This document shows positions 38,664 through 55,000 of a stretch of DNA of 64,000 nt, one piece after another (positions within the stretch are counted from its first letter, which is position 1; each line of letters opens with the position of its first letter). The stretch is from Halichondria panicea. Its lineage: Eukaryota; Porifera; Demospongiae; Suberitida; Halichondriidae. The stretch covers positions 5,368,120 through 5,432,119 of the forward strand of contig NC_087389.1 in NCBI RefSeq assembly GCF_963675165.1, in the 5' to 3' direction. Below the pieces are notes generated by a model. That model saw only the letters and a program-made list of their open reading frames with translations, did not search any database and had not been told where the DNA came from. The translations under genes were made by a program, and so were the position numbers.

Positions 38664-40487
38664 CTAAGTCTCCCGTTCTGGTAAAGAAATAGACCTAACA
38701 AGGAATCCAGTGGAGCTGAATCCAGTAGAGCTGGATCCAGAAGAGCTGGGTCTTTCACCTTTGTTTGAGCCATCGGTTGAGACAGTGGGTTGCTGACCAC
38801 CTTCCAAATCCAATGGTTGAGGATACATTTCTATGTAGTTGTTAGATCTCCTAGGGACATCATGATGATGTAGAGCTGGTCCGACATCACGCTGGTTTGT
38901 ACTTTTTTTACGATTGCATGCCCAAAAACAGAAGATCATGAGAACAACTCCTAGAATTATAAATCCAACGGTGCAAATAATTTCCAGACGGCTCAGATTA
39001 GGAGAGCTGTCAGTAATGATGACATCCTTTATGCGTACGCCCTCAATTACCTCTCTTGACCTCAATGCTGTCTTGATCTGCTTAAGATTCAACTCCTCCT
39101 CGGCTGTGAGTTGCAGTACTAGTTCTTGTGAGTCACACTTTAGATCAGAGTTCGATACCCTCAAACACGGCCAGTAAGACAATACCTCTTCGATGCCACT
39201 GACAAGCATGCCCTAGAGAGAATAAGCAAGGGAGTGTTTCAAACAGGTGCTGTACACACCGTTTGTACTATGGGCTATAATATTCATTTGAGGGATTTTT
39301 TTCATGTTAATGATGTGACATCTGTTTCGTCTTTGACCATTGAATACTTCTTATTACTACGTACCTATAAATATAGACAGGGCCATCCCTAACTAACGGT
39401 ATATAATATATTTCCCAAGTGCTGAATCAAACTATTTACAAGTGGCATGAATTCCCTATGACCACACTACCAAGCCGTAATAGCCTATTCACAGACGGGT
39501 AGTCCATCAAATCCTCACAATAACAAAAAATAAACAAACAGGGAAACTGCACTATCCCAAAAAACTAGCTGTCTATTAGAGATAATGAAATTCATGTTAG
39601 CTCTGTAGAACCCCCTCTTAAGGTGTGGTCACATTAGCTTCCGAAAAGGGATTAAAATAACAATTATAATCTTTTATAATTACATTTTCAATATTTGGGG
39701 ACAATTTGTATTGACACGGCTCTAAGAATAACAATCTTCCATGACATCATTTGCTGACTAGTGTGAGAAACTATCTCCCGAGGCAAAGTGCAATTAGCAT
39801 GAATAGAGTTAGAGGCCATTTAGTTGACTTTTTTTGCTGATTAAGAAATCACACCTCCTCATAATATTTAGAAACCTGATACTTGAGTATACTGAGTGTG
39901 AGCATGTGTTAAGAGCATGGTAACAGTGTGCATGTGATCGGTATATTAAAATACCCTATATACGCACATACATGTAGCCTAAACTGTTCGATATTCGGAA
40001 TTAATACTAAGTAAATGAAGCCAATATATAGACAGAGGGGGAAATTTTCACTCACGAACAATGCGTGCACTTACGATGTTTTGTTCGTCACAGTCAGCGT
40101 CACTGAAGTCCAGAGTGACGGTTAGCTCAAAGATTTTGGTAGGTCCATTGCACTGTGGTGGTGTGGGTACGAGTGGAGTGGTTGTTGGTGGAGTAGTGGG
40201 GGGTGGTGGAGTGGTGGGTGGAGTGGGTAGAGGTACTGTGAATGAGAGAAATAATTATAGTAAAGTCATGTACACAAATAATAGCATTACAATCAAGGCT
40301 TAATATTCAATGCCGTGTTTTCAACAGTTCTTATTGTTCCCAATGCAATAAAGACGTATGAATATAGTAGTCTAGTGTTGTACACAATCAATTATGCAAT
40401 AGAGCATGCCTCCATGTGAGTAGACTCAAAATAGCTGAACAGCAAATTTCAATTATTTTATGTAAACATAAGGCTTTTCCATATAAT

Positions 40488-40528
<41 letters not shown>

Positions 40529-41388
40529 TACACTGGCAGTAACAATTTAAAGACATGATAGAATGATTAACTTACACAATATTAGATCAACACTCGCAGT
40601 ATATCTTAGTCCATTAAACGTCGGGGCCACGATCATCTTCACAGAAACACTTCCACTTGACACTGCTGCCACATCCCGAGTCAAATGCAGGGCCAAAATA
40701 TCACCAACTCTGATAATGTCCACAGCTGAAAACAATTCCATATTATCGACAATCACATGTTGGCAAGGATAATCAAACACCACACTGTCCGGCGTGTAGC
40801 TAAAGATGCACAGGAATGAATCATTGAATTTAACTTTTCCGCTGAATTCGGTCTGCTTTGTCCGTTCTCCAAGCTCAAAGAACTGCAGAGTGGCAGTTTG
40901 TTGCATGTCTGCTTGACTCTTACTCACGTCACGAGGCCGAACTGTGTAGGAATATCAAGCAATAATAATAACATTGTTTGACCCTTGACAGTGGTAGGAG
41001 CGTATTGATTGTCATACTATAATACTGTTGATATACAGCTAGCTTAGCTTCCTCTTAATTGGTATAATGTACAATTATGAATGAGCTTACCAGTAAAGAT
41101 AATTGAGGTTGAATTAACCCCTTCAACTCCGCACATGTATGATCCTTCATCCGAGGGCAGATTGTCGTGGCTCAGTATCGTATCTGTCTGGCCACAGATG
41201 AGCTCCCCGTTCTTGTACCATGAGACCAGGCCTTGGCGGCACAGGTCCGAGTCAGTGATACCGTTACTTCTACACTCTAGGGCTGGGGTCACTTCTACGC
41301 TTGAGGGACTGTTAGTGCAAGCATGGGTTTGCTGCAGAGCACACAGGGCTATCACACAGATCACTTTGAACATGCTCATCAGATTCAC
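38664..41388 (-). CDS. Single-pass membrane receptor with Ig-like domain and YxxM tail motif
   Basis: Four exons: 41388-41091, 40941-40576, 40235-40075 and 39212-38664; phases 1, 1, 0; predicted 457 aa. A signal peptide (FKVICVIALCALQQTHA) is followed by an Ig-like domain with a core WYKNGE and the tyrosine-corner cysteine DEGSYMC. A second ~120-aa extracellular domain of unrecognised type follows. Next come a Pro/Thr stalk (TPPTTPPPPTTPP) and a membrane-proximal domain (SGIEEVLSYWPCL through VIITD). One transmembrane segment (about 352-374, IICTVGFIILGVVLMIFCFW) precedes a ~80-aa tail with NNYIEMYPQP, where Y401 is in a YxxM context, and a Ser-rich end. No kinase or Toll/interleukin domain is present, so any signalling must go through adaptors. 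The gene is divergent to the SH2/WASP-tail gene at 41885. Confidence 0.8.
40487..40524 (+). repeat. TG microsatellite
   Basis: Pure (TG)n in the intron between the second and third exons of the Ig receptor. Confidence 0.85.
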
Positions 41389-41884
41389 TATAGAACTTGG
41401 TTCAATGGAAATTCAGTTAGCTACCAAGCTATTTTATAGCTATTTTATATACTGGGTGAACCATTAGGCATATCTTTTAAATAAAGATATGCTCAAGGGG
41501 GGCTCCCAGGGAAAAGCCGCCCTTAATAGTCCTAACTCTTACCTGTCATGTCAGCAGCCGAAACTCAAACTTAGTACATAGTGAGGCCAATACAATACAG
41601 TATTTAATTAATTAATAGGTCAGAGTCTTCTAGTTCTCTGGGTCATAGTGCAGTGTTCTGAGGTCACTATTCCTCAAGCATCTCACCACGCCCCTTATCC
41701 CTCCCCCTAGTTTCTGCAAGCTCTGCAAAAAAGGTGCCCAGTGAATTCTTGACGTAAGAGAAACACACAGCCTCTCTGGAAGCTACCTAACTGGCTAGCT
41801 ATAGCGTACGAAAACTGCAGCAAGCTTCAAGCAACTATTTTACCAGCCTCAGCTGAGCCTTGAAGGAACACACCTCATGCAGTC
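41389..41884. promoter_or_regulatory. Candidate bidirectional promoter (Ig receptor / SH2-WASP-tail gene)
   Basis: About 0.5 kb separates the two divergent start codons, so both promoters must lie here or in undetected 5' exons. No TATA or recognisable site was identified with confidence. The assignment depends on the four-base start exon inferred at 41885. Confidence 0.4.
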
Positions 41885-44800
41885 ATGGGTGAGCTCTTGT
41901 AACTAGTACAAGCTAGCTACATGATGTGTACATGGGGGTAGCTCATAAGTGGCTGGGCAAGCTTGTGGTTTGTTTTTGTAGACTAGTGGTGTGTGTGTTG
42001 TGTATAACAGTCTCTCCATTGTATTCATTTGGTGCTATCAAAGAACGTGTGTATGTACCCAGAGCTAGAGAATTTGTGCTTTTAATCGTGTATCCTCAAG
42101 TGTATAATTTATAGTCATTAATACCCATACACGTACCCACGCACACACCACACACTTTTCTGGGCTCATCAATTTACTATAAGTGTTTTCATATGTGTGA
42201 GGTTTCTCAGCCCTTTCTCCTTTTTTAGTAGGATCTTGTGAGCTAGCTGTAAGGTTGTGCTAGCTGTGTGTATGTGCCTACCACTTTTTAACACTCAAAC
42301 ATGCGGATATAATAATACCTTCACGCCTTGTTGAGCAGAAAATCCCCAAGTGTGATTACTATACTAAACTGTGCGTATCATTGTACACCTGTATGTATGT
42401 ACCAGTGTATGTATACTAGTTGTGTGGGTGAGAATGTTCTTCTTTTCCTCAATTCCTATCACTTTTCAAAGCCCTTGTGGTTTACTGATCTTACAATCCA
42501 TCAGCTGCCATTAACTGATAAACTAAACACTGATAATGATCTAGATAATGTCATCCATCCCTATAATATTTCTGTACTTTATTATGACGGTTGTTAGTTA
42601 TTATCACACAGGCTAGCTTGTATTCACCATGACAACTGAATTCCCTTCACTTGTTGAACAATTTCCCCTTGCCAATATTATGGTCACTTTGCCAACCACT
42701 TAAGTGCTCGCAAGTGACCAACCATTTTACCCTAACTAGGCCAATAAAACCCACTCCTTATAACTTCCTTAATTATCACATTTGTGTATTAAACACTTAC
42801 TAAGCCAATTGACAAATGAATTAGTCCCATCTATTATAATAGACAACATTGTAAGTGTCATCGTCTATAGATTATTATGTTCGTATCCGTACTTTTCAAT
42901 CAAAAGCTTCTAAATACACAAACATGGTGTAGTTTCAGTATGCCTCTCTATTCGAGTGTGTGTGTGTGTGTGTACACCATAGAGACTGTGCATGTACTGT
43001 TGTTTACTGCTGTCAGAGCATGCTTAGTCGATAAATCAACAACTTGTGTTTTTGTAGCAGCTTTACTAAAATGTACAACTGTCTATTTTACACTGCCAGA
43101 GTGTCTAGCACTTACAGTGCATTTATATAGTGTGTATACAGTGTGGGAGGCGGTTATATCTGTTAAGTTGTGTCAGTTTGTCAGTGTGTCGCTATTGCTT
43201 TAGCTCAGAGGAGGTACGACATGAGTACCTCGATTAGGCTTGGTCACTGTTGCATGTGACTATATCAATTTTAGCCTGATCGAGGTACTTGTCAGACCTC
43301 CTCTGTTGTTTTACCGTGTCATTAAACTGTACCTTATGATTTACTCACTAATTATGTGTGCATATTTTGCATAGCTCCAATGAGCATCACATTGTTTGTC
43401 CTATTAAGCAGGCTGCCATGATACTACTCTACGTATCTTGCGCTGTTGTTGATTTATATTGTATACGTTTCTTCACATGCTGTTAAGAGTGGATAACAAA
43501 AACATATCATGTTTGCAAATCATGTTGAAAGATATTCGTGTTAAAACAACTGTGTAGCTTTGTAGTCGCTAATCGACTAAGCTAAAATACCGTATAGCAG
43601 GTGTATTTTGAGGGTATAAATGTTTGTGAGTTTCGCTGATCAAGCATATCGTATATCTTCTAATTTATTGGACACTTTTCTGGGCAATTGTCGTTGTTCT
43701 AATACAGCGGACACTCTGGTGCTTTAATTATCCGGACAATACCTTAAAAAGTTGAGATACATTCCAAGCAACCTATAGTTTATAGCCGGCCAGCAAGAGT
43801 TCTGCAAGTTAGTTTTAGATAGCTATCTAAAATTATTCAGTCGCACACTGTTCTAATAAACTTAGCTAGCTCGCATGCAGCTGCTTGCTTGTTTGGACGC
43901 TCTATAAAGATCTGTTCCAATTATACCCGGACAATTTGCTTTCCGATAAATTTAAATAAAGTATACGGCATACTGCGAACATTTATACCAACGAATTTAA
44001 TATGGCATGCATGCATGCTGCAAAAGGCTCCTATTCCACGAACATTAAATCCGCGAAAGCCTTTCTAAAGGCATTTCTGCATTTATACCCTTGAAATAAT
44101 TATACGATGGTAGCCGTGCTGATGTAATGAAGTCTTGCTAGTGTCGTTACTGCTAACCTGTATATACTGATTTAACAAACTATGAATAGACCAGCATTTG
44201 ATCGTTGTAACATCATGCAGGCATGATTTGTGTCATAATTACATGTATGTCAGGAATGCGTTTAGACCCAATGACTGCCTGCTCTCTGGCTTCTACTATG
44301 TTAGGCCTGCTGCTGCTTGGATCATCTCCCGGCCTATGCTTCTGTCACCTGTGCATTTATTGCTAAGGGCCCTAGCAATTGCCTAACTTGCAACAGTGAA
44401 CTTTGTGCATATCTTCAAAGTATATCTATTGATCTGGTATGGTAACCTGTTGTTGTGGAAATGCCTGTGGATTGATTGAATGAGATCTTAGCTGCTATAG
44501 AAAATAGAAACCATGTTTGCTTTTATCGTCACTATGACAAAATCCCTTCATCTTTCAGTCAGTGTACACACAGTCAATCCCACTGCTCAGATTCCTGCAT
44601 CATACTAATACGTACCAAATAGATTTCCAACTTTTACGTGGCAACTTCCCTGGGTATTTTCCTGCGTGCATACCTCCTCTCTGACATAGTTCCTTCATCT
44701 CTCTCTACACTTTTCTGATTTCTGTCTCACACCGTCAGACTGTTGTGATTTCTATATTACACTTAGTGCCGATACCTTTGTTCCACTGGAATTCCCTAGG

Positions 44801-45733
44801 TATTTCCCTCTTTGCCGTTATATCATGGACAAACTGATCTCACATATTTAAGTACATTAAATGATTTCATCAACCTTTCACATACCCCACCCCAGGAAGT
44901 CACTAATGCTTGCAGTTGCTAGTCTAATAGGGCATTTACCGTATTAGTGCATATATATACATGCTGCAAAAAGGCTGCTATTCTGCAAAAAATAAGTCCG
45001 GTCTTTCCGCGAAAGTTTGTTCCTTCAAAATAATTATACCCGCTGTACGTACGGTATCCACTTGCTCTACCATTAGACATTCAGTATCTGAAAAAGACTA
45101 TCATGTGGTGAATTTTTATAGCTTAGATTCCGACTCCAGTAATAATACATTCACGTATAAACTATTTCATCATACATAATAATATAGGTGCTTTCATAGT
45201 ATTGAGATTGCCAGCTCATATGTCATTACTCATTCGCATGATACACAAACTGACAAAGCCTTTGAATAGAAGCTTCCTCCCAATAGTATTTCATTGGTCA
45301 CTTTTCTCATAGTTTTTGAGATTCAATGTATGAGCTGTACATAACAGTTTGGTTTAATATACGCCCCTACTGTGTGACCAAGAGTATACATAAACAGTAT
45401 GTGTAATACTACTACAGGTGGTGTCCTTACTACATGGTGATGGATGTTGTTTCGTCAATGAACAATATCTATTCCCAACATTATTTGTAATCTTTTTTAA
45501 GTATTTTAGGGATTGCATACCAATTTGTATTACACTAAAAAATAAATTCAATCACTTTACTTTAATATTTAATAAGGTGTGTTACTTCTAAATTTGTATG
45601 GTGTGTTTTAGCCCCTATGCTGTATCTCACTCTAGCACTTGCTCATGCTATTACCCCTACCCCCTGTGCTGTACAGCTAGTTACGTATCTCAATCAGCAT
45701 GTGTGTGTGTATAGCAGGGAGGGTTGGTAACGT

Positions 45734-45813
<80 letters not shown>

Positions 45814-47113
45814 ATGCGGGTATGTGGGTTTGTGTGTGTGTGTGTGTGCATCTGTGCGTGTGTGTGTGTGTGTGTGTGTGTGCATCTGTGCGTGCGTGCG
45901 TGCGTGTGGATGTATGCAAGTGTGTGTGTGTGTGTTCATGACAGACCTCCCACATTGCTACCCTCCTCCCCCCACAGCCGCAGAGTTAGAGAGAGTTCAC
46001 GGTTTCCACAAGGTCAACAATGTCAAGGTGAGTGGGTGACAGCTGTTGGTAGAGTAAACACTGGCCACTGTTTGTGAGGATGATGGTTTCAGTGTGTGGG
46101 CCACCAGCAACCATCACATGTGCTGTGTGCAGTACATGTACAGCCAAGCACACATGTGTACATGTACAGCCAAGCATACATGTGAAGTACATGTACAGCC
46201 AAGCATACAGTGCATGTACAGTGAAGCCTGGTCACCATTGCAGTGGGGCTGTAATAGAGAGGTGGTCTGCTAACACAGGTCCAAACACAGAATGGTGGCT
46301 ATTTAATCCTCAATGTCACTCGATTCAGCACACACATTTGCCTCTTTTAAGTATTTACAGTGGCCCTCCCACACATACTCTATTCTGCCCTGAGGTTCAC
46401 ACCTACTCTATTCTGCGTTTGCATCACTTCGTGGTTCAACTGCACTTCTGCACTTCACTTTTGCAGTTTCAGTTCAAATGTGATATCAATAATCATGTGC
46501 TATATTATTATTTTAGTACAGCCATGAGCCTATAATTAAAAGCCAGCTGTGAAGAACAGTGGATCAGTGTTTATGGACTAGCTATACAAAACAATGCTGC
46601 TAGAGTCTATTTGTGTTGAGTTCAACGCTTCATAATGTTGTCATAACTTCGTCATACTTCACTAAAATTCCAAGTTTAATGTACCATTGGATTCCTTGTT
46701 AAAAAGCGCTTCTATCTATATGCTGTAGAGCTGGTAAGCTTCAACCAGCTAAAAGTTAGCATTTTCTATGTTGAAGTCCCTGGCATACTAGTACCATAAA
46801 CCATAGAAGCCATAATTGACCACATAATTATAACTTCCGAGGCCAAACTCAACGCAAATAGAGTTTAGCTAGAGAGCACATGTACCAAAATTATACTCTT
46901 GCCAGTTTCTTGTGATCGATGTAAACTGCAGAAGCGTGAAATGAACCGCAACTGCAGAATGAAGGGTGTGTACCTCAGGGCCACTGTAATACTAGGCATA
47001 AGAGTGATAGTCTATAACTTGTGCATAGAGTCATTACTGTGTTTGCACTGGCATGCATATGCTTTAGTTTGTAAGGGCGCTGTGTACACTGTATGTATTA
47101 CAGTTACTACGCA

Positions 47114-47144
<31 letters not shown>

Positions 47145-47149
47145 GCACG

Positions 47150-47217
<68 letters not shown>

Positions 47218-47479
47218 CTCGTGAGTTGCTTCAGCCCTACCTCAGTACTGATGGCTACTACCTCCTGCGTCCCTCTTCGGACAGTAAGGGAGGTGTCCTC
47301 TGCACCATATGTGTCACGTGAGTCAACAATGGATGCCTAAACAACAAGCACTGCTGTAGCTACGCTGTAGCTGTATATATACTGGAGCTAAGTAGTTTCT
47401 AAATGTCTGAGATTTTGCTTTAGACTCATTTTCTGTGTGCCAGACTGTAACTGTTATAGTGAACTTACACCCACCCCCA

Positions 47480-47512
<33 letters not shown>

Positions 47513-48545
47513 GGAACAAGTCCAAGCTGATGAACTATCGTCTGGTGCAGGACCCCTCCACAAAACGGTTCTACATTCATAGCCACACCTCTTTCCCTGC
47601 TATCAGTCTCCTGTTGGGTCATTATCAGTCCACTGCCATCAACGCTGAGGCCAAGACACGCCTTCTTTATCCAGTGGGGGTTCCCCGGCAAGACACACCC
47701 ACTTCCGAGGGTGAGGACGCATACGTTGTCATGGAGAGGCGTGAGTTGTATAGCAACAGGCGATAATTTATTGTCACTCAACAAATTATCACTTTCAATG
47801 TTTGGATATTTTAGCTCGTTTTCGGAAGTTTTTAATAAGTTAGTGTGTAACATAGCTAGTGTTTGCATAGCTAATTCCTGTATACATTGCGTACATACAT
47901 TGTGTGCATGACCCATGCCTTACGAGAATTGATGCAATGCACAACTTTGTAAGCCCCTAAATTATCCTTAAGGGCCTGTTTTGCATACATGGGCAACTAC
48001 AGTAGTAAGATCTAGGTGTGGTCGTGAGGTCAATAGTTATTTTTACAAATTAATAATTATTTGTCACCGTACGTCATTCTAGGTGCTACTGCACTCAGCA
48101 CTAGGTCAGCAAAAGATCAGAGAAGCCTCTAATTTTTGTTGCTATTATATTTCACAACGTCCTCAATTAATACATGTAGTCTTTGTCATAATTATTATAG
48201 CTTGGGGAATATCCCCATAATCTCCCCGGGTATAATTACAACATGTTTGTGTATCCTTCCGATGATCACCCGTTATCTGTGGCCTGATTTTAGACGTTTG
48301 TTATGTGTGGAATTTCATCAAGTCAATTGATTTAATTTTGTCCTTGCTCATGCTGCACTTATAGCACACAACACACACACGCCCACACCACACACACACA
48401 CACAGAGACTACTCTCTCCCCGACTAGAAAAAGCATATCCAACAGTAACAGCAACAGAAACAGCAGCTCTGATAATGAGATACAGGGACTGCATAACTTC
48501 CTACCAAAGTCAGAGGTAGGTACAGTAACAGAACTAACACCACCC

Positions 48546-48613
<68 letters not shown>

Positions 48614-49312
48614 TCAGTGGGATAATGGCCATTGTAATGTACATCAGAACTATGAATAGGTCAATAGTAGCAGGCATAATAATCATAATAATTAACAAAA
48701 ACACTTCCATTTAATGATCGTGTGCCACACCCGGACGTGCATTGACTTCCAATAACTGTACGAAATAGTATTGCACAGAGCAATCGGCACTACTCCCTCA
48801 GCACATGATTATAGCCAATAGTTAATGAGTCTACGTAGGTATATAATGATGCCTAATTAAGTAGCTGTAATCCCCCTACTGACCTCTGTCAGTATGCTGA
48901 CCTCTGTGAGTGTCTCTCATTACCCTACCTACAGCTCAGTGCAGTCATGTCTCCATACGTGGGTCACAGTGGCTACTATCTACTGAGACCCAGTGCTACC
49001 TCTGCAGGTCAACTCACTCTCGCCGTAAGGTATGCAGGTGGCCTCTTATCTACATGATTGTATAATACCCATCAATGATTACAAAATTGAAATTGAATCT
49101 CATGCACTTCTTAAATTGCATAAAGAAAATATGGTTTCTAAAAGAGTTGCCCCCTTGTCATAGCAGTTTTCAGCAGCACCGTGTTTGAATAGGTGTGACT
49201 AAATATGCTATGACGTTTGTTTGCGTAGCATTGAAAATCAAAATTGAAAACGGTTCGTAATTACGATTCCTTTTAATTACATCATTGGCAATTATCTCAA
49301 ACCGCCCCCCCC

Positions 49313-49397
<85 letters not shown>

Positions 49398-51568
49398 CCA
49401 CACTGACCAAGTGCTCAACTTTAAGATCAACTGTGAGAAGGGCCAATACTTCATCTCTCCTAAGAAACGTTTCAAGAGTGTACAGGAACTGATCACCTTC
49501 TACCACAGTCATGGAATACGCTCCAAGAAGGCAGGCAATAGTCACATACTCTTAGTACACCCGATCCCTGTCGATCCGGCCATGGAGAAACACTATCAGG
49601 AAATCAGAGAACAGAAAGGTATACTGTGCATACTGTACATACTGTACAGTGATGTGACCAGAGAATTTTCAAAATGGTACATGGCTATCTAAAACAGAAA
49701 AATTATCTTGTAAACTAGGCCTTAGAGGTCTAAGGGCTTTTCTGGAGCCCCTGAGCAAGATAGAGGTGGTTAGTAGCCACTGACCAGTGTGGGCACATAC
49801 TGTACCTAATGTAGCTGGTATACTGTCTGTATAATTATGAGTATGTGTATAGCTTTGAGTGCCTGTAACTTAGATTTTGGGTTATCCAATTTTAAAAATT
49901 AATCGATATTCCGTATCATGTGAACACATCCACACATAATGATACCCAATGGATGCATTTTGAAAGCTCCCTTAACTGCTGTATTGCTGTATGTAACCAA
50001 CTGCTTTCAGTTCAAAATTGGAATTGCATTTTCGTCAAACATGAAAGTTTTAGGCCAGATCTAATAATATCATTATGCCATAAATAGATACATGTGTCAA
50101 TAATATAATCTTTATCTTCTGGGTCGTCGCCCAGTTTCCGTGAAACTTGATAAAACTAGACAGACAATCATAATCCGAGTTGCATTGCTCAATTAATTTG
50201 CTAAATTAGTATCAATGGACAGCAATTTCTACCCCCCCCCCACACACACACACATGTACTCACCCCCACCCCCATACATTCACACACACACACACACCCA
50301 CAGTTGCGGCGAGGCAGGCAGAGCCACCTGCATCCACGGCCTTGCTCCCTGGTTGGTCAGAGCATTGGCACAACGGTTACAACAAAACTTATTACTACAA
50401 TGGTGAAACTGGACAATCACTTTGGGAAAAACCATTGGCCCCGCCCACACAACAATCCCCACCCCCTGTCCTGGAGAAAGGTTCTAGCCGATCGTCAATG
50501 AGAGACCGCCCACTCCCTATTGTGCCTGGTGGTGTGGGTGGTGTGAGGCGTGTGAATGGTGAGGGGAGTGAGGACAGCAACACGATTGGTCGACGTTCTT
50601 CCCTCGCTAAGAAATACAGTCGCAAACAAATGCCCATACCATCTACACCATCAGGATCGCAGACACTCCCTCATCGGAAGAAATCCTCAGGTATATCCGA
50701 TCGAGAACTCCCTCCGTTACCCCCCAAGGAAGAAACGCCTCCACCTAAACGAACTATGCCCCCACTACCCCCCAAAGAGTCTAGTGATGTTCGGGGGGAG
50801 TCCTCTGCCCCGGGGATTGCTTCTAGACCCCCCATGCCCATCCCTGGCAGTCGATCATCTCAAGATTTGCAGCAAAAATCGATCCCAGCCTTGCCTCGGA
50901 AGGAAGACACTCGAGGGGGGATGAGATCTCCTAAACCAATACCACCTCTGCCCCCCTCTAAGACGGTCGTACAGAATGGACACCCTCCCCTCCCCCCTAA
51001 AGCAGACCAACCAATGCCTCCCCTCCCACCAAAAGCAGATGAGCCTCTACCAGTGCATTTACAGCCACCTCAACAAAGACCGAAACGCAAGAAAGTTATT
51101 GAATATGAAGACATCGTTCCGTTGCGTCAGCCTAGCCCAAAAGCTCCTCCTAAAAAAGTTCCACCTCCTTTACCGGAAAAAGACTTGGAAGCAGCGACAA
51201 GTGGCCCGCCCCCTCCACCCCCACCCCCGGCAATAGGTGCCCCACCCCCTCCTCCACTTCCTCCCATGGCCCCACCCTCTCCGAGTCCAGCACAACTGCC
51301 AAAGTTACGAGCAGCTACTATGAATACACCTTCTCCTCAGAGTAGCCCTGGTAGTTCCGGACGTCCCTTCAATGCAGGTGATCTTGCCTCGCAGAGGCAC
51401 ATGCTCAAGAAACGGGAGTCTCTTCCGGAGGAAGGAAAGAAGGAAGAGCTGTCAGGGTTCGCTAGTTTGTTTGCTAGCGCTATCGACACTCGACGAAAAG
51501 CCATCGAAGATTCTGATAGTGAGAGTGACTTTGATGATGTTGAAGATGACGATGACTGGGATGATTGA
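41885..51568 (+). CDS. Tandem SH2, WW, proline-rich protein with WASP-like central/acidic tail
   Basis: Exons: 41885-41888 (ATGG, inferred from phase and a GTGAGC donor), 45978-46027, 47217-47317, 47514-47740, 48406-48515, 48935-49029, 49398-49618 and 50304-51568; predicted 690 aa. SH2-1 (about 8-106) and SH2-2 (about 155-258) each keep the phosphotyrosine-binding arginine in YYLLRPS (R36, R182). A YVVM motif (Y122) lies between them. A WW domain (283-316) has W287, the YYYN core, W310 and P313. About 300 Pro-rich residues follow with repeated PPLPPK SH3-ligand motifs and polyproline like profilin sites. The last 39 residues, [17 protein letters not shown] then an acidic run ending DDDDWDD with one Trp, match the central-acidic Arp2/3-binding region of WASP/N-WASP; a weak WH2-like [12 protein letters not shown] precedes it. 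Not a known WASP layout. The first exon is the least certain part. Confidence 0.82.
43206..43305. repeat. 100-bp foldback repeat
   Basis: CAGAGGAGGTACGACATGAG then TACCTCGATTAGGCT pairs with AGCCTGATCGAGGTACTTGT then CAGACCTCCTCTG; arms of about 34 bp with a few mismatches. It lies in the long first intron of the SH2/WASP-tail gene. Confidence 0.8.
43588..44112. mobile_element. TACCGTATAGC-family MITE interrupted by another element
   Basis: The two outer parts (43588 to about 43652 and about 43970-44112) align in order with the uninterrupted element at 54547-54761 read in reverse (GATCAAGC, ACATTTATA, GCATGCATGCATGCTGCAAA, CCTTTCTAAAGGCATTT). The ~320 bp between them is foreign and has its own weakly inverted ends (TCTTCTAATTTATTGGACA near 43653). 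This is a nested insertion. Confidence 0.72.
44938..45057. mobile_element. Internally deleted TACCGTA-family MITE
   Basis: The ends are TACCGTAT and TACGTACGGTA. The interior keeps the family landmarks ATGCTGCAAAAAGGCTGCTA and TTTCCGCGAAAG. It is shorter than the 54547 copy. Confidence 0.65.
45736..45935 (+). repeat. TG microsatellite with imperfect extension
   Basis: Pure (TG)n from about 45736 to 45811, then TG runs broken by CATCTGTGCG units to about 45935, ending some 40 bp before the acceptor at 45977. Confidence 0.92.
46118..46235 (+). repeat. Short tandem repeat with GTACATGTACAGCCAAGCA units
   Basis: Three to four imperfect copies of a ~28-bp unit, ending in TGTACAGTGAAGCCTGG, in an intron of the SH2/WASP-tail gene. 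Confidence 0.75.
46602..46867 (+). mobile_element. MITE-like element, AGAGTCTATTTGTG family, full-length copy
   Basis: The ends AGAGTCTATTTGTGTTGA and TCAACGCAAATAGAGTTT are inverted repeats around 266 bp. It is the intact reference for the copies at 7719-7894 and 9977-10877. It lies in an intron. Confidence 0.8.
47109..47216 (+). repeat. CA microsatellite forming a 3' splice site
   Basis: (CGCA)n then (CA)n running directly into the AG of the acceptor for the exon at 47217. Confidence 0.92.
48549..48612 (+). repeat. CA microsatellite
   Basis: Pure (CA)n some 35 bp downstream of the donor at 48515. Confidence 0.92.
49315..49397 (+). repeat. CA microsatellite forming a 3' splice site
   Basis: More than 40 CA units ending in ACAG at the acceptor for the SH2-2 exon at 49398, preceded by a C run. 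Confidence 0.93.
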
Positions 51569-52064
51569 TGGACGCATGGACAAACTATTAAATTATTGTA
51601 ATTAATCACCATTTTTATTGTTTCAGCACTCACTCACTACATTGGGTTTTATCAATTGTACCACTACATGTACATGCCGTATTAGACTTCAATTGCGTTA
51701 TAACCCTTCAGAGGAATTCATGCATAAAATGTATGTCACTATTATTTTATGCACTATTCTTATTATTTTATTCTGTATAGAACTACGCAATAGTTTGTGT
51801 CCCACTTCCAAAAATAATGTTCTGATAATTCTAAGTTGTTTGGGGTTAGGCAAACCTTTATAAAAGCGAAAACTCGGCCTGGGGTCATGTGTTTTCATGA
51901 CATCATACAAATCGGTTATAGGCTAACACTCGAAGTCAAAGCGCGGAGTGCATCCCTAACGCTCCTTGGAAACAGGGGATTTCCCTCTGCAGAATTTGGG
52001 GGAGTGGCTCGGGTCAGAGTTGAACAACCTCGTGGACTGGCTATAGCATGCATGCAACTAAAAC
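51569..52064. other. Spacer between the SH2/WASP-tail and mTERF-like genes
   Basis: AT-rich 3' region followed by less AT-rich sequence just before the mTERF-like start, likely holding its promoter. No separate gene seen. Confidence 0.5.
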
Positions 52065-55000
52065 ATGGCAGCACTGAAAGCCTTTTGTTTATCTTCAGCG
52101 CCCAACGCTCCTCTGTTCACCTCTGCATTATGTGCTTGTCACAGGCTCTTGACCACTACTGTCCCCAAGCAAAGAATGAAGTTTGTTCCCCGTTTAGGTA
52201 GAACCTTGTCGTCCAACCCAGGAGATGAATTGTGTGGCTTCTCTGGACCGGAAAAAGATGTTCTAAAAGCTGAAGAAAATGCTCAAGTTGCTGTAGCTAA
52301 TTCACAGAATGTGAGCAAGCCTGTAACGATTGATTGTGTGGAAACAAACCAACTACCGGCGGATAATTTCGCTTCAAAATTACGATTCTTGGACTTTGTT
52401 AATTTAGCCGAGGAAGATCAAATACAACCACCAGATATGGTGAAACCTCGTGGATCCTTTTTGAGGCAACAAAATAAAGACGTTCTGTTTGAGCGTCTCC
52501 CCACACCAACACGAAGCACACTGCAGTTCACCGTAGGCCGTCAAATAACCACACTAAATAATGCCAAGTCAGCAGTCCGGAGGGGTAAACCCCCACTTGA
52601 CAAATTATTAATTGAAGACGAGACTAATTTAATGTCGGTGAACCATGAAAAATTACGTAGTCGCACAGCTAGCCAATCGGAAAGCACTCGAGATGTTGTA
52701 AACTACGTCGCTAGTCAAGAGTCGATGTACAAGCAAGACCTGCATCTCTACACTGACGCACTGCCCTCCATACTGGGCTCTACTGTTTCTGAAGTTGAAG
52801 AAACTCGCGAGAAATTGAGCCAAGCCGGATTTTCCCCTGCTGAAATTGGAAGAGTTTTGCCCATTCTTCCTCTCATATTTGAAGTTGATTATGAGAAGGT
52901 GTACGAAGTGTACTGTCTGCTGATGGAGTATCTGGGCCATCAAACAAGAGTGCTTAAGTTGATGAGGACGCATACTTTCCTGTTGTCGCTTGATCCATCT
53001 CAGGTGAGTTTGTGGGTGTGGGAGTTAATACAGTTGCTGGATAAAGAATATACTCTATTTAAACGAGGTTGCTTACACATCTTGATAAGCACCACGGAGG
53101 TATTGATCACGTTACAGTTGAATACACAAAGCAAAATGTTCAATACAAATTTCCACTTCAGAGCAACAGCTTTTAACAGTTTTTACCACCTCCCCCCACA
53201 CACATGTAGGTTAAGAAGACCCTAGAGAGATACAGCAGTTTTGGCCTGAGCTCACCTGAGCTGCTGTCTCTGTTGACCCACTACCCACTCGTGTTCACCA
53301 CACCTCTCAAGGAATCCACTCTGAGCAGAATAAGACAAACAATGGAGGCTGGCTTTGACTCTCACTGGCTGGCCAAGACACTCCTCTATAGCATGGTGAG
53401 TGTGTGTGTCCCTTTCTTCCCCACTATACTCTTCTCTCCCCTCTTTTCCTCTACCCATCATGCACTCTTTCTCCCTTCCCTTTCTTCTTCACTATCCACA
53501 TAATTATGTGTGTCTTGGTGGAGATAATAGTCTATCTTGGAACTATTATTAGAGTTCCTACTAGTTCTAGTTGTTGAAGTTCTGATATAGTAGAGAGCAG
53601 AATAATTATTTATATTAAGTATGGATACTGTATACTGTAATAATATGTGTCTTTGATTTGTCTTGATGCTGGAGTACGTTGTTTCTTAGTTTGTCGTTTC
53701 TTTCTCTGTTGTTGTTCTATTTTCCAGTTTTACTATACCACCACCTGTTAGACTAAGCGAATGTGCTCCCATTCTCTCTCTCCTTGCTGCAGCGTTATCG
53801 ACCAGCACGTGCAGAGTTTGATCCAAGTGATTCCCTCACTATTGGTCTCCTGAAGGAGTACAAGGTTGACCTGGGGGAGGTGCTTATCAAGCATCCTGAC
53901 CTCTTCCAGCAGTCAGGTCAGCAATCACATGACTCTCACCATCTTTGAATACCCAATTCCTATTTTAGTGACTGTAATTAAGTACGTCCTAGCTCTCACA
54001 TGATACATGTGTGCTTATAATGATCTACTGTTACAAACAAAAGCATCCAGTATGTTTGTTGGGTCATTGAACAGTTGGAGATCTTTCAACAGCATATCGT
54101 TGATAAAATTTTAACAATAATTATAAATAATTATGATTATAGAAAAAGACCTTTCAAATGATGTATTTAATCTTTTACCCTTGGACCATGCATGGGTTGT
54201 GGCCGAAATTGTCAAATTCTGTCATCTTAACTTTTATGGCACCATTCGAAAGGTCTCTTTCTAAAGCTAATTTGCACGTTCCTGTATTGTCCAGGTCAAC
54301 AGTTGATAGTACTGATCAAGACGCTGTCTGGGGGACCACTGTATCTGAACAGAAGTGACATCGGGTCATTACTGTCTAAGATACCTGAAGTACTCTTTCA
54401 GCTCGACGATATGGTGAGAGTTAGTCAAGTTAGTGGGAGATCCGTGGATAGAAAATGATGTGCAAGTGTTTTTGTATTCGACTGTTAAAAAGTAGTTGGA
54501 TGTGGGCCTACATAACACCATTACTTCTTTTAACAGTGCACTGTAATACCGTATAGCGGGTATATTTCGAGGGGATACATTTTTGCGGAAATGCCTTTAG
54601 AAAGGTTTTTACGGATTTGATTTTCCCGGAATAGCAGCCTTTTTTGCAGCATGCATGCATGCATGCGATATTAATGTCGCGGTTATAAATGTTTGCAGTA
54701 CGTGCTTGATCCGCGAAAACCACAATAATTTATACCCTTGAAATATACCCGCTATACGGTAGTTCTGTAGTGTGTTAGCATTATATCATCACTCTGTAGG
54801 ATGCCCTGAGGGCTCACCTGTCTCTACTGGCTGAGATCTTCACTGCCTACACACTACGAAACCAGGTAAAGGTTGCATGTGAGTATATATAAGTACTAAT
54901 GTAGCCAATGTTGAGCAAGTGTGTGCACTCCTGACCTACTGCATCACATAACTTACTGTCTACTTACTAACTACTGTCACGCTATTCGTTATCCAACACA

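Follow-up and report, generated by a model that had tools for sequence, protein, structure and literature searches.

Can one protein both read phosphotyrosine and hand the signal to Arp2/3? In vertebrates, tyrosine phosphorylation is linked to Arp2/3 through a series of separate proteins (a receptor, Nck or Grb2, and WASP). The question is raised by a locus at positions 41885–51568, plus strand, of a 64,000-nucleotide stretch of the Halichondria panicea genome (NC_087389.1; hereafter the window), where eight exons splice in frame to encode a predicted protein of 690 amino acids (2073 nt, with a single terminal stop). The order of domains in this chain is SH2, SH2, WW, proline-rich region, and a WASP-like C-terminus of connector and acidic parts (C-A). 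If the parts act together as their order suggests, a tyrosine-kinase signal could pass straight to branched actin through one protein.

SH2 domains, WW domain and proline-rich region

Pfam analysis of the spliced chain listed seven families at E up to 1, under filters that remove most matches above about 0.1, and identified SH2 in two stretches (E 4.5e-20). Each SH2 domain carries one copy of YYLLRPS (residues 32–38 and 178–184), as the initial annotation had described. The conserved Arg of the FLVR motif is present in both domains (Arg36 and Arg182), and both have Asn at the beta-D4 position (Asn59 in SH2-1 and Asn203 in SH2-2), where most SH2 domains have His. Asn is also found at beta-D4 in the SH2 domain of human SH3BP2, the best PDB match to SH2-1, and that domain binds phosphotyrosine. 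The conserved Arg, taken by itself, suggests that the two domains may bind phosphotyrosine. No vertebrate family could be assigned to them, the best PDB matches being in disagreement (SH3BP2 for SH2-1, as against RASA1 and SHP2 when the query was headed by SH2-2). When the whole genome (131 Mb in 39 contigs) was searched for the SH2 family in unspliced form, exon by exon, the SH2 exons of this gene were not among the 71 matches at E ≤ 0.001, and the domains are therefore visible only after splicing. Two tyrosines, Tyr122 (EDAYVVME) and Tyr537 (VIEYEDIV), are candidate sites for tyrosine kinases.

The WW domain comprises residues 284–313 (50345–50434, plus strand; Pfam E 1.6e-8), and a single-sequence structure model folds it into three strands with pLDDT blocks of 77–86. 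Comparison with the PDB returned 29 matches, including PRPF40A (E 3.2e-10), TCERG1 (E 2.4e-8), the FBP11 entries 1zr7 and 1ywi, and chains of Pin1 and WBP4. The domain is nearest to the WW domains of FBP11/PRPF40A and TCERG1, that is, to the PPLP-binding type (group II/III). The likeness to these proteins, closest in the PDB, lies in the WW sequence; they are splicing and transcription proteins, unlike the predicted signalling chain. The proline-rich region that follows (residues about 400–600; 50693–51295, plus strand) contains seven PPLP motifs, eight PxxPx[KR] motifs, polyproline runs, and Tyr537 within EYEDIV. The "many" PPLPPK motifs of the initial annotation amount to four exact copies, accompanied by SH3-ligand-like motifs, and no PPxY motif occurs in the 690-residue chain. 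According to PMC11079029, the first WW domain of PRPF40A binds PPLP, and the protein's own proline-rich segments autoinhibit its WW tandem. In the present chain, the combination of an FBP11-type WW domain, seven PPLP motifs and no PPxY makes binding of the WW domain to PPLP motifs of its own chain, in cis or between copies, the simplest guess, and the resemblance of the domain suggests such binding.

The C-terminal tail and its probable function

The C-terminus resembles the connector and acidic parts of WASP. The putative C helix spans residues 653–674 (51452–51517, plus strand) and is followed by an acidic tail (residues 675–690; 51518–51565, plus strand) that contains one Trp and ends in DDDDWDD. 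This Trp is third from the C-terminal end, the same place as in the mammalian WASP-family members described in PMC7112243. Measured against the C-domain pattern of PMC3298513, which has V/I/L/M at three heptad positions, the tail is correctly spaced and retains both the basic triplet and the hydrophobic residue that closes the pattern, whereas its heptad positions are F, F and I, with Phe at two of the three. Of two regular expressions that we wrote for this element, the strict form fails and the Phe-tolerant form gives one match, at residue 655. The single-sequence model places helices at residues 627–640 and 645–672; ten-residue blocks of the second helix have pLDDT values of 69 to 76, in a model whose confidence is otherwise low (mean 53).

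A WH2 domain, which PMC7112243 treats as the defining domain of WASP-family factors, was not found ahead of the C helix by Pfam, by a home-made profile of seven WH2 sequences, or by a regular expression that encodes the published pattern. Profile searches proposed at the outset for SH2, WW, WH2 and the WASP C-terminus thus recovered SH2, WW and C-A, and WH2 was not found. Residues 627–640 (51374–51415, plus strand), which form the first helix of the model, are a possible degenerate remnant of WH2, located where a WH2 would be expected. Of the published pattern, the segment retains LKK and part of the helix, but it lacks two of the helix's three large hydrophobic residues, has a short linker and carries Arg at its last position. 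This segment may be a decayed WH2, and chance could also account for it.

We consider it probable that the chain is a phosphotyrosine-recruited regulator of Arp2/3, and most likely a nucleation-promoting factor. The exons, the domains and the resemblance of the tail are its anatomy, from which we infer each step of binding and activation. Counting against this reading are the undetected WH2, the two Phe at heptad positions, the weak pairwise match to N-WASP, the bias correction of the profile match, the difference in intron position from the WASP genes of this genome, the sub-threshold SH2 exons in the unspliced search and the low confidence of the model. In the proposed sequence of events, the SH2 pair would recognize a doubly phosphorylated receptor or scaffold, SH3 proteins and profilin-actin would gather on the proline-rich region, and the C helix, together with the acidic tail and its Trp, would engage Arp2/3, with activation upon clustering. 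Because a proper WH2 went undetected, actin monomers would probably be delivered by profilin on the polyproline or by nearby WASP/WAVE. The FBP11-type WW domain, bound to the chain's own PPLP motifs, would probably close the resting molecule or link copies. A more tentative proposal is that this arrangement serves some early animals as a one-protein switch from phosphotyrosine to Arp2/3, in which tandem SH2 docking and the binding of WW to PPLP within the protein govern a WASP-like tail devoid of WH2. Such a switch would lead from tyrosine kinase to branched actin with Nck and WASP/WAVE dispensable.

The initial annotation had called the protein a nucleation-promoting factor outright; the C-A tail speaks for this, but since no WH2 was found, the role is likely but unproven, and a tether or competitor of Arp2/3 is a serious rival. 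Such a protein would use its WH2-less C-A part to hold Arp2/3 at phosphotyrosine sites or to block other factors. The agreement of three methods on the missing WH2 is in keeping with this reading, as is the competition of isolated CA fragments with full VCA. The long polyproline adjoining the tail, however, could supply profilin-actin, and the C helix and acidic Trp are retained as in activators, so we regard the tether or competitor as rather unlikely.

Exon structure and the single-gene model

The regulator proposed above presupposes that the SH2 exons and the last exon belong to one gene. Exon 1 is putative, consisting of the four nucleotides ATGG (41885–41888, plus strand), placed by a GT donor and by frame. 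An in-frame ATG at 45938, immediately 5' of exon 2, is the other possible start, and the 5' end may be either. Exons 2–4 (45978–46027, 47217–47317 and 47514–47740) encode SH2-1 (residues about 10–108), exons 5–7 (48406–48515, 48935–49029 and 49398–49618) encode SH2-2 (residues about 155–255), and exon 8 (50304–51568) encodes the WW domain, the proline-rich region and the C-A tail together, all on the plus strand. GT-AG borders are present at all seven introns, and read-through past the seven donors reaches a stop within 1 to 47 residues. The two SH2 units share the phases 1-0-2-1; in the middle exon of each, the S of YYLLRPS is the 20th residue and the exon ends in phase 2. Comparison of SH2-1 with SH2-2 by BLASTP gave E 1e-11, with identity at 28 of 109 positions. 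The shared phases and the similarity form the pattern to be expected if a set of exons with phase 1-1 borders had been duplicated within the gene, which suggests that exons 2–7 belong together.

Whether exon 8 is joined to this set decides between the single chain and two genes, namely a tandem-SH2 adaptor (exons 1–7) and a WW-proline-CA protein (exon 8 with an unseen upstream exon). Intron 7, at 685 nt, and the stop met 24 residues beyond exon 7 on reading on would suit two genes. Against this, exon 8 is entered in phase 1, matching the phase at the exon 7/8 junction. Up to residue 97 of the exon-8 open frame, a point beyond the WW domain, no in-frame ATG occurs, and upstream exons are therefore needed. 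Intron 7 contains no AATAAA or ATTAAA on the plus strand. A poly(A)-signal-like ATTAAA lies at 51587–51592 (plus strand), 18 bases past the stop codon, and is the sole AATAAA/ATTAAA on the plus strand between 49619 and 52100. We therefore judge the two-gene arrangement improbable, and the early proposal that the SH2 exons and the exon at 50304–51568 form one gene is supported, at the level of sequence, as an in-frame single-gene model.

Long (CA)n tracts abut the modelled 3' splice sites (CACACAG directly before the exon) of exons 3, 4, 5 and 7, at 47154–47216, 47485–47513, 48389–48405 and 49315–49397, respectively, and exon 8 is preceded by an interrupted CA tract. Among tracts of at least 8 CA units in the window, a G follows in 8 of 11 on the plus strand and in 0 of 8 on the minus strand; these are raw counts, and some of the 8 plus-strand cases were checked as splice sites. 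CA repeats may be acceptor tracts in this genome.

Specificity of the match to WASP-family tails

The likeness of the tail to WASP was further assessed with a C-A profile built from seven tails excluding the queried one: two near-identical N-WASP chains, two WASPs, a WAVE-like protein and WASH from the same genome, and the locus C16:116750, the WASH and C16:116750 tails being shortened by hand. With this profile, the exon-8 frame scored 18.6 bits at E 1.3e-4; its best single domain had E 0.0014, and the bias correction amounted to about 11 bits. Among 2048 window frames (stop-to-stop, at least 20 aa), this was the only match above the inclusion threshold, the next having E 0.67. The 40-residue tail alone scored 22.2 bits, a value reached by none of 2000 composition-preserving shuffles of the C and A halves (maximum 18.0), nor by any of 2000 in which the C part alone was shuffled and the acidic part left intact (maximum 17.7). 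The WASP-type helix followed by an acidic run with a single Trp, as first noted from the sequence, is thus borne out by the profile and by the shuffles.

Pairwise comparison gave weaker values. Against the PDB, the 68-residue C-terminus matched N-WASP best (E 0.026), and N-WASP accounted for five of the seven matches up to E 10; a capsid protein (E 0.25) outranked the fifth N-WASP chain (E 0.43). The tail holds IxxRxKAIxxSD, whose separation from the acidic Trp is as expected and whose first Ile is replaced by Met in the N-WASP chains of the PDB. A search of its own genome with the tail, in which the initial pass offered a single candidate, returned only the tail itself and none of the genome's WASP tails. 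Common descent with WASP is not proven, because the N-WASP E-values are weak, the bias is about 11 bits and the own-genome search found only itself. The C and A parts lie within one exon here (51452–51568), whereas both WASP genes of this genome appear to have an intron between them; the tail may therefore have lacked introns when it was acquired, or may have shed them since. A pure adaptor, whose acidic Trp tail arose by chance or convergence and makes no contact with Arp2/3, would fit the commonness of acidic low-complexity tails, the weak pairwise E-values and the genome search that missed the WASP tails, but is very improbable given a match that depends on residue order, even with the acidic part intact, and an IxxRxKAIxxSD correctly spaced from the acidic Trp.

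WASP-family and SH2 relatives in the genome

Contig C7 carries a canonical WASP gene (WH1, PBD, WH2 and C-A), followed by another, WASP-like gene that has WH1, WH2 and C-A. WASH is encoded on C15. A WH2 with its tail on C16 is labelled WAVE-like here, and a WH2 on C14 is labelled WIP-like, both names being based on WH2 plus tail or flank only. With WASP genes, WASH and a WAVE-like gene in the same genome, the SH2-tail gene is extra to the usual set. A search of the genome with SH2-SH2-WW gave 17 matches, seven in the gene itself (six at E ≤ 6.5e-13 and exon 2 at E 0.02) and the remaining ten elsewhere, the best with E 1.7e-4 (L015). No relatives of the exon-8 frame were found in prokaryote contigs (331 pattern matches) or viral contigs (54), which are collections without animals.

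The two WASP-like genes stand in tandem at C7:1792671-1797603 (L034). The PBD family search matched only the first, but by eye some open frames in the second (L034 6775-7387) look similar to the GBD region of the first. At C16:116750 (L030), proline repeats are accompanied by a WH2 scoring 26.5 bits, by the C-like stretch IADALSQALSARQSIA and by an acidic stretch with Trp, after which the sequence continues; the locus possibly holds an internal VCA.

Comparison with known systems

Like WASP and N-WASP, the chain has a proline-rich region that gives way, at the C-terminus, to a C helix and then to an acidic tail with Trp. WASP and N-WASP have WH1, PBD and WH2; none of these was listed by Pfam for the present chain, which instead has two SH2 domains and a WW domain. 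The Pfam list of the chain contained no WH1, PBD (GBD/CRIB), WASH domain or SH3, in line with the contrast to WH1/GBD or WASH recruitment drawn in the initial annotation. Precedents for WASP-family tails on other N-termini are WAWH and WAML, which, according to Kollmar 2012 (PMC3298513), keep a GBD and have an IMD, respectively, in place of the SH2 and WW domains found here. This survey, which gives its coverage as 1021 sequences from 408 organisms, uses neither "SH2" nor "WW domain" in its main text, and equally neither "sponge", "Amphimedon" nor "Monosiga". The term SH2 is likewise absent from the main text of PMC7112243, PMC12050087 and PMC5461030. Among the PMC papers listed in a literature search, covered by title and opening of the abstract and with subscription papers and preprints outside the collection, none names a protein that unites SH2 and a WASP tail in a single chain.

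Nck is similar in the proposed function, leading from phosphotyrosine to Arp2/3, but needs a WASP-family protein as a second partner, whereas SH2 and the C-A tail share one chain here. The earlier label "Nck-like" is accordingly loose: the phosphotyrosine-to-Arp2/3 idea is common to both, but Nck has SH3 domains, whereas the chain bears ligands for such domains and its Pfam list contains no SH3. An acidic Trp element that binds Arp2/3 without WH2 is also present in cortactin and the other factors of class II. In cortactin, this element is N-terminal and combined with F-actin repeats and an SH3 domain, in contrast to the C-terminal position seen here.

If the proposed function is correct, the chain, with both ends in one molecule, would be a natural counterpart of the reconstituted nephrin-based clusters described in PMC4238058. 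WASP-like tails would then be movable onto phosphotyrosine readers, and the protein would offer a direct test of the minimum needed for phosphotyrosine-driven actin assembly.

Neighbouring open frames

Downstream of the gene, a 386-aa open frame at 52065–53225 (plus strand) has no Pfam match at 0.01; it possibly encodes an mTERF-like protein. On the other side, divergent frames lie at 38667–41409 on the minus strand. For one of them, which has a hydrophobic segment and the tail NYIEMYPQPL, Pfam gave a CD34-like match (E 0.0078) that fell short of the cut-off; the two others tested gave no match. These frames may form one gene, perhaps for a surface receptor.
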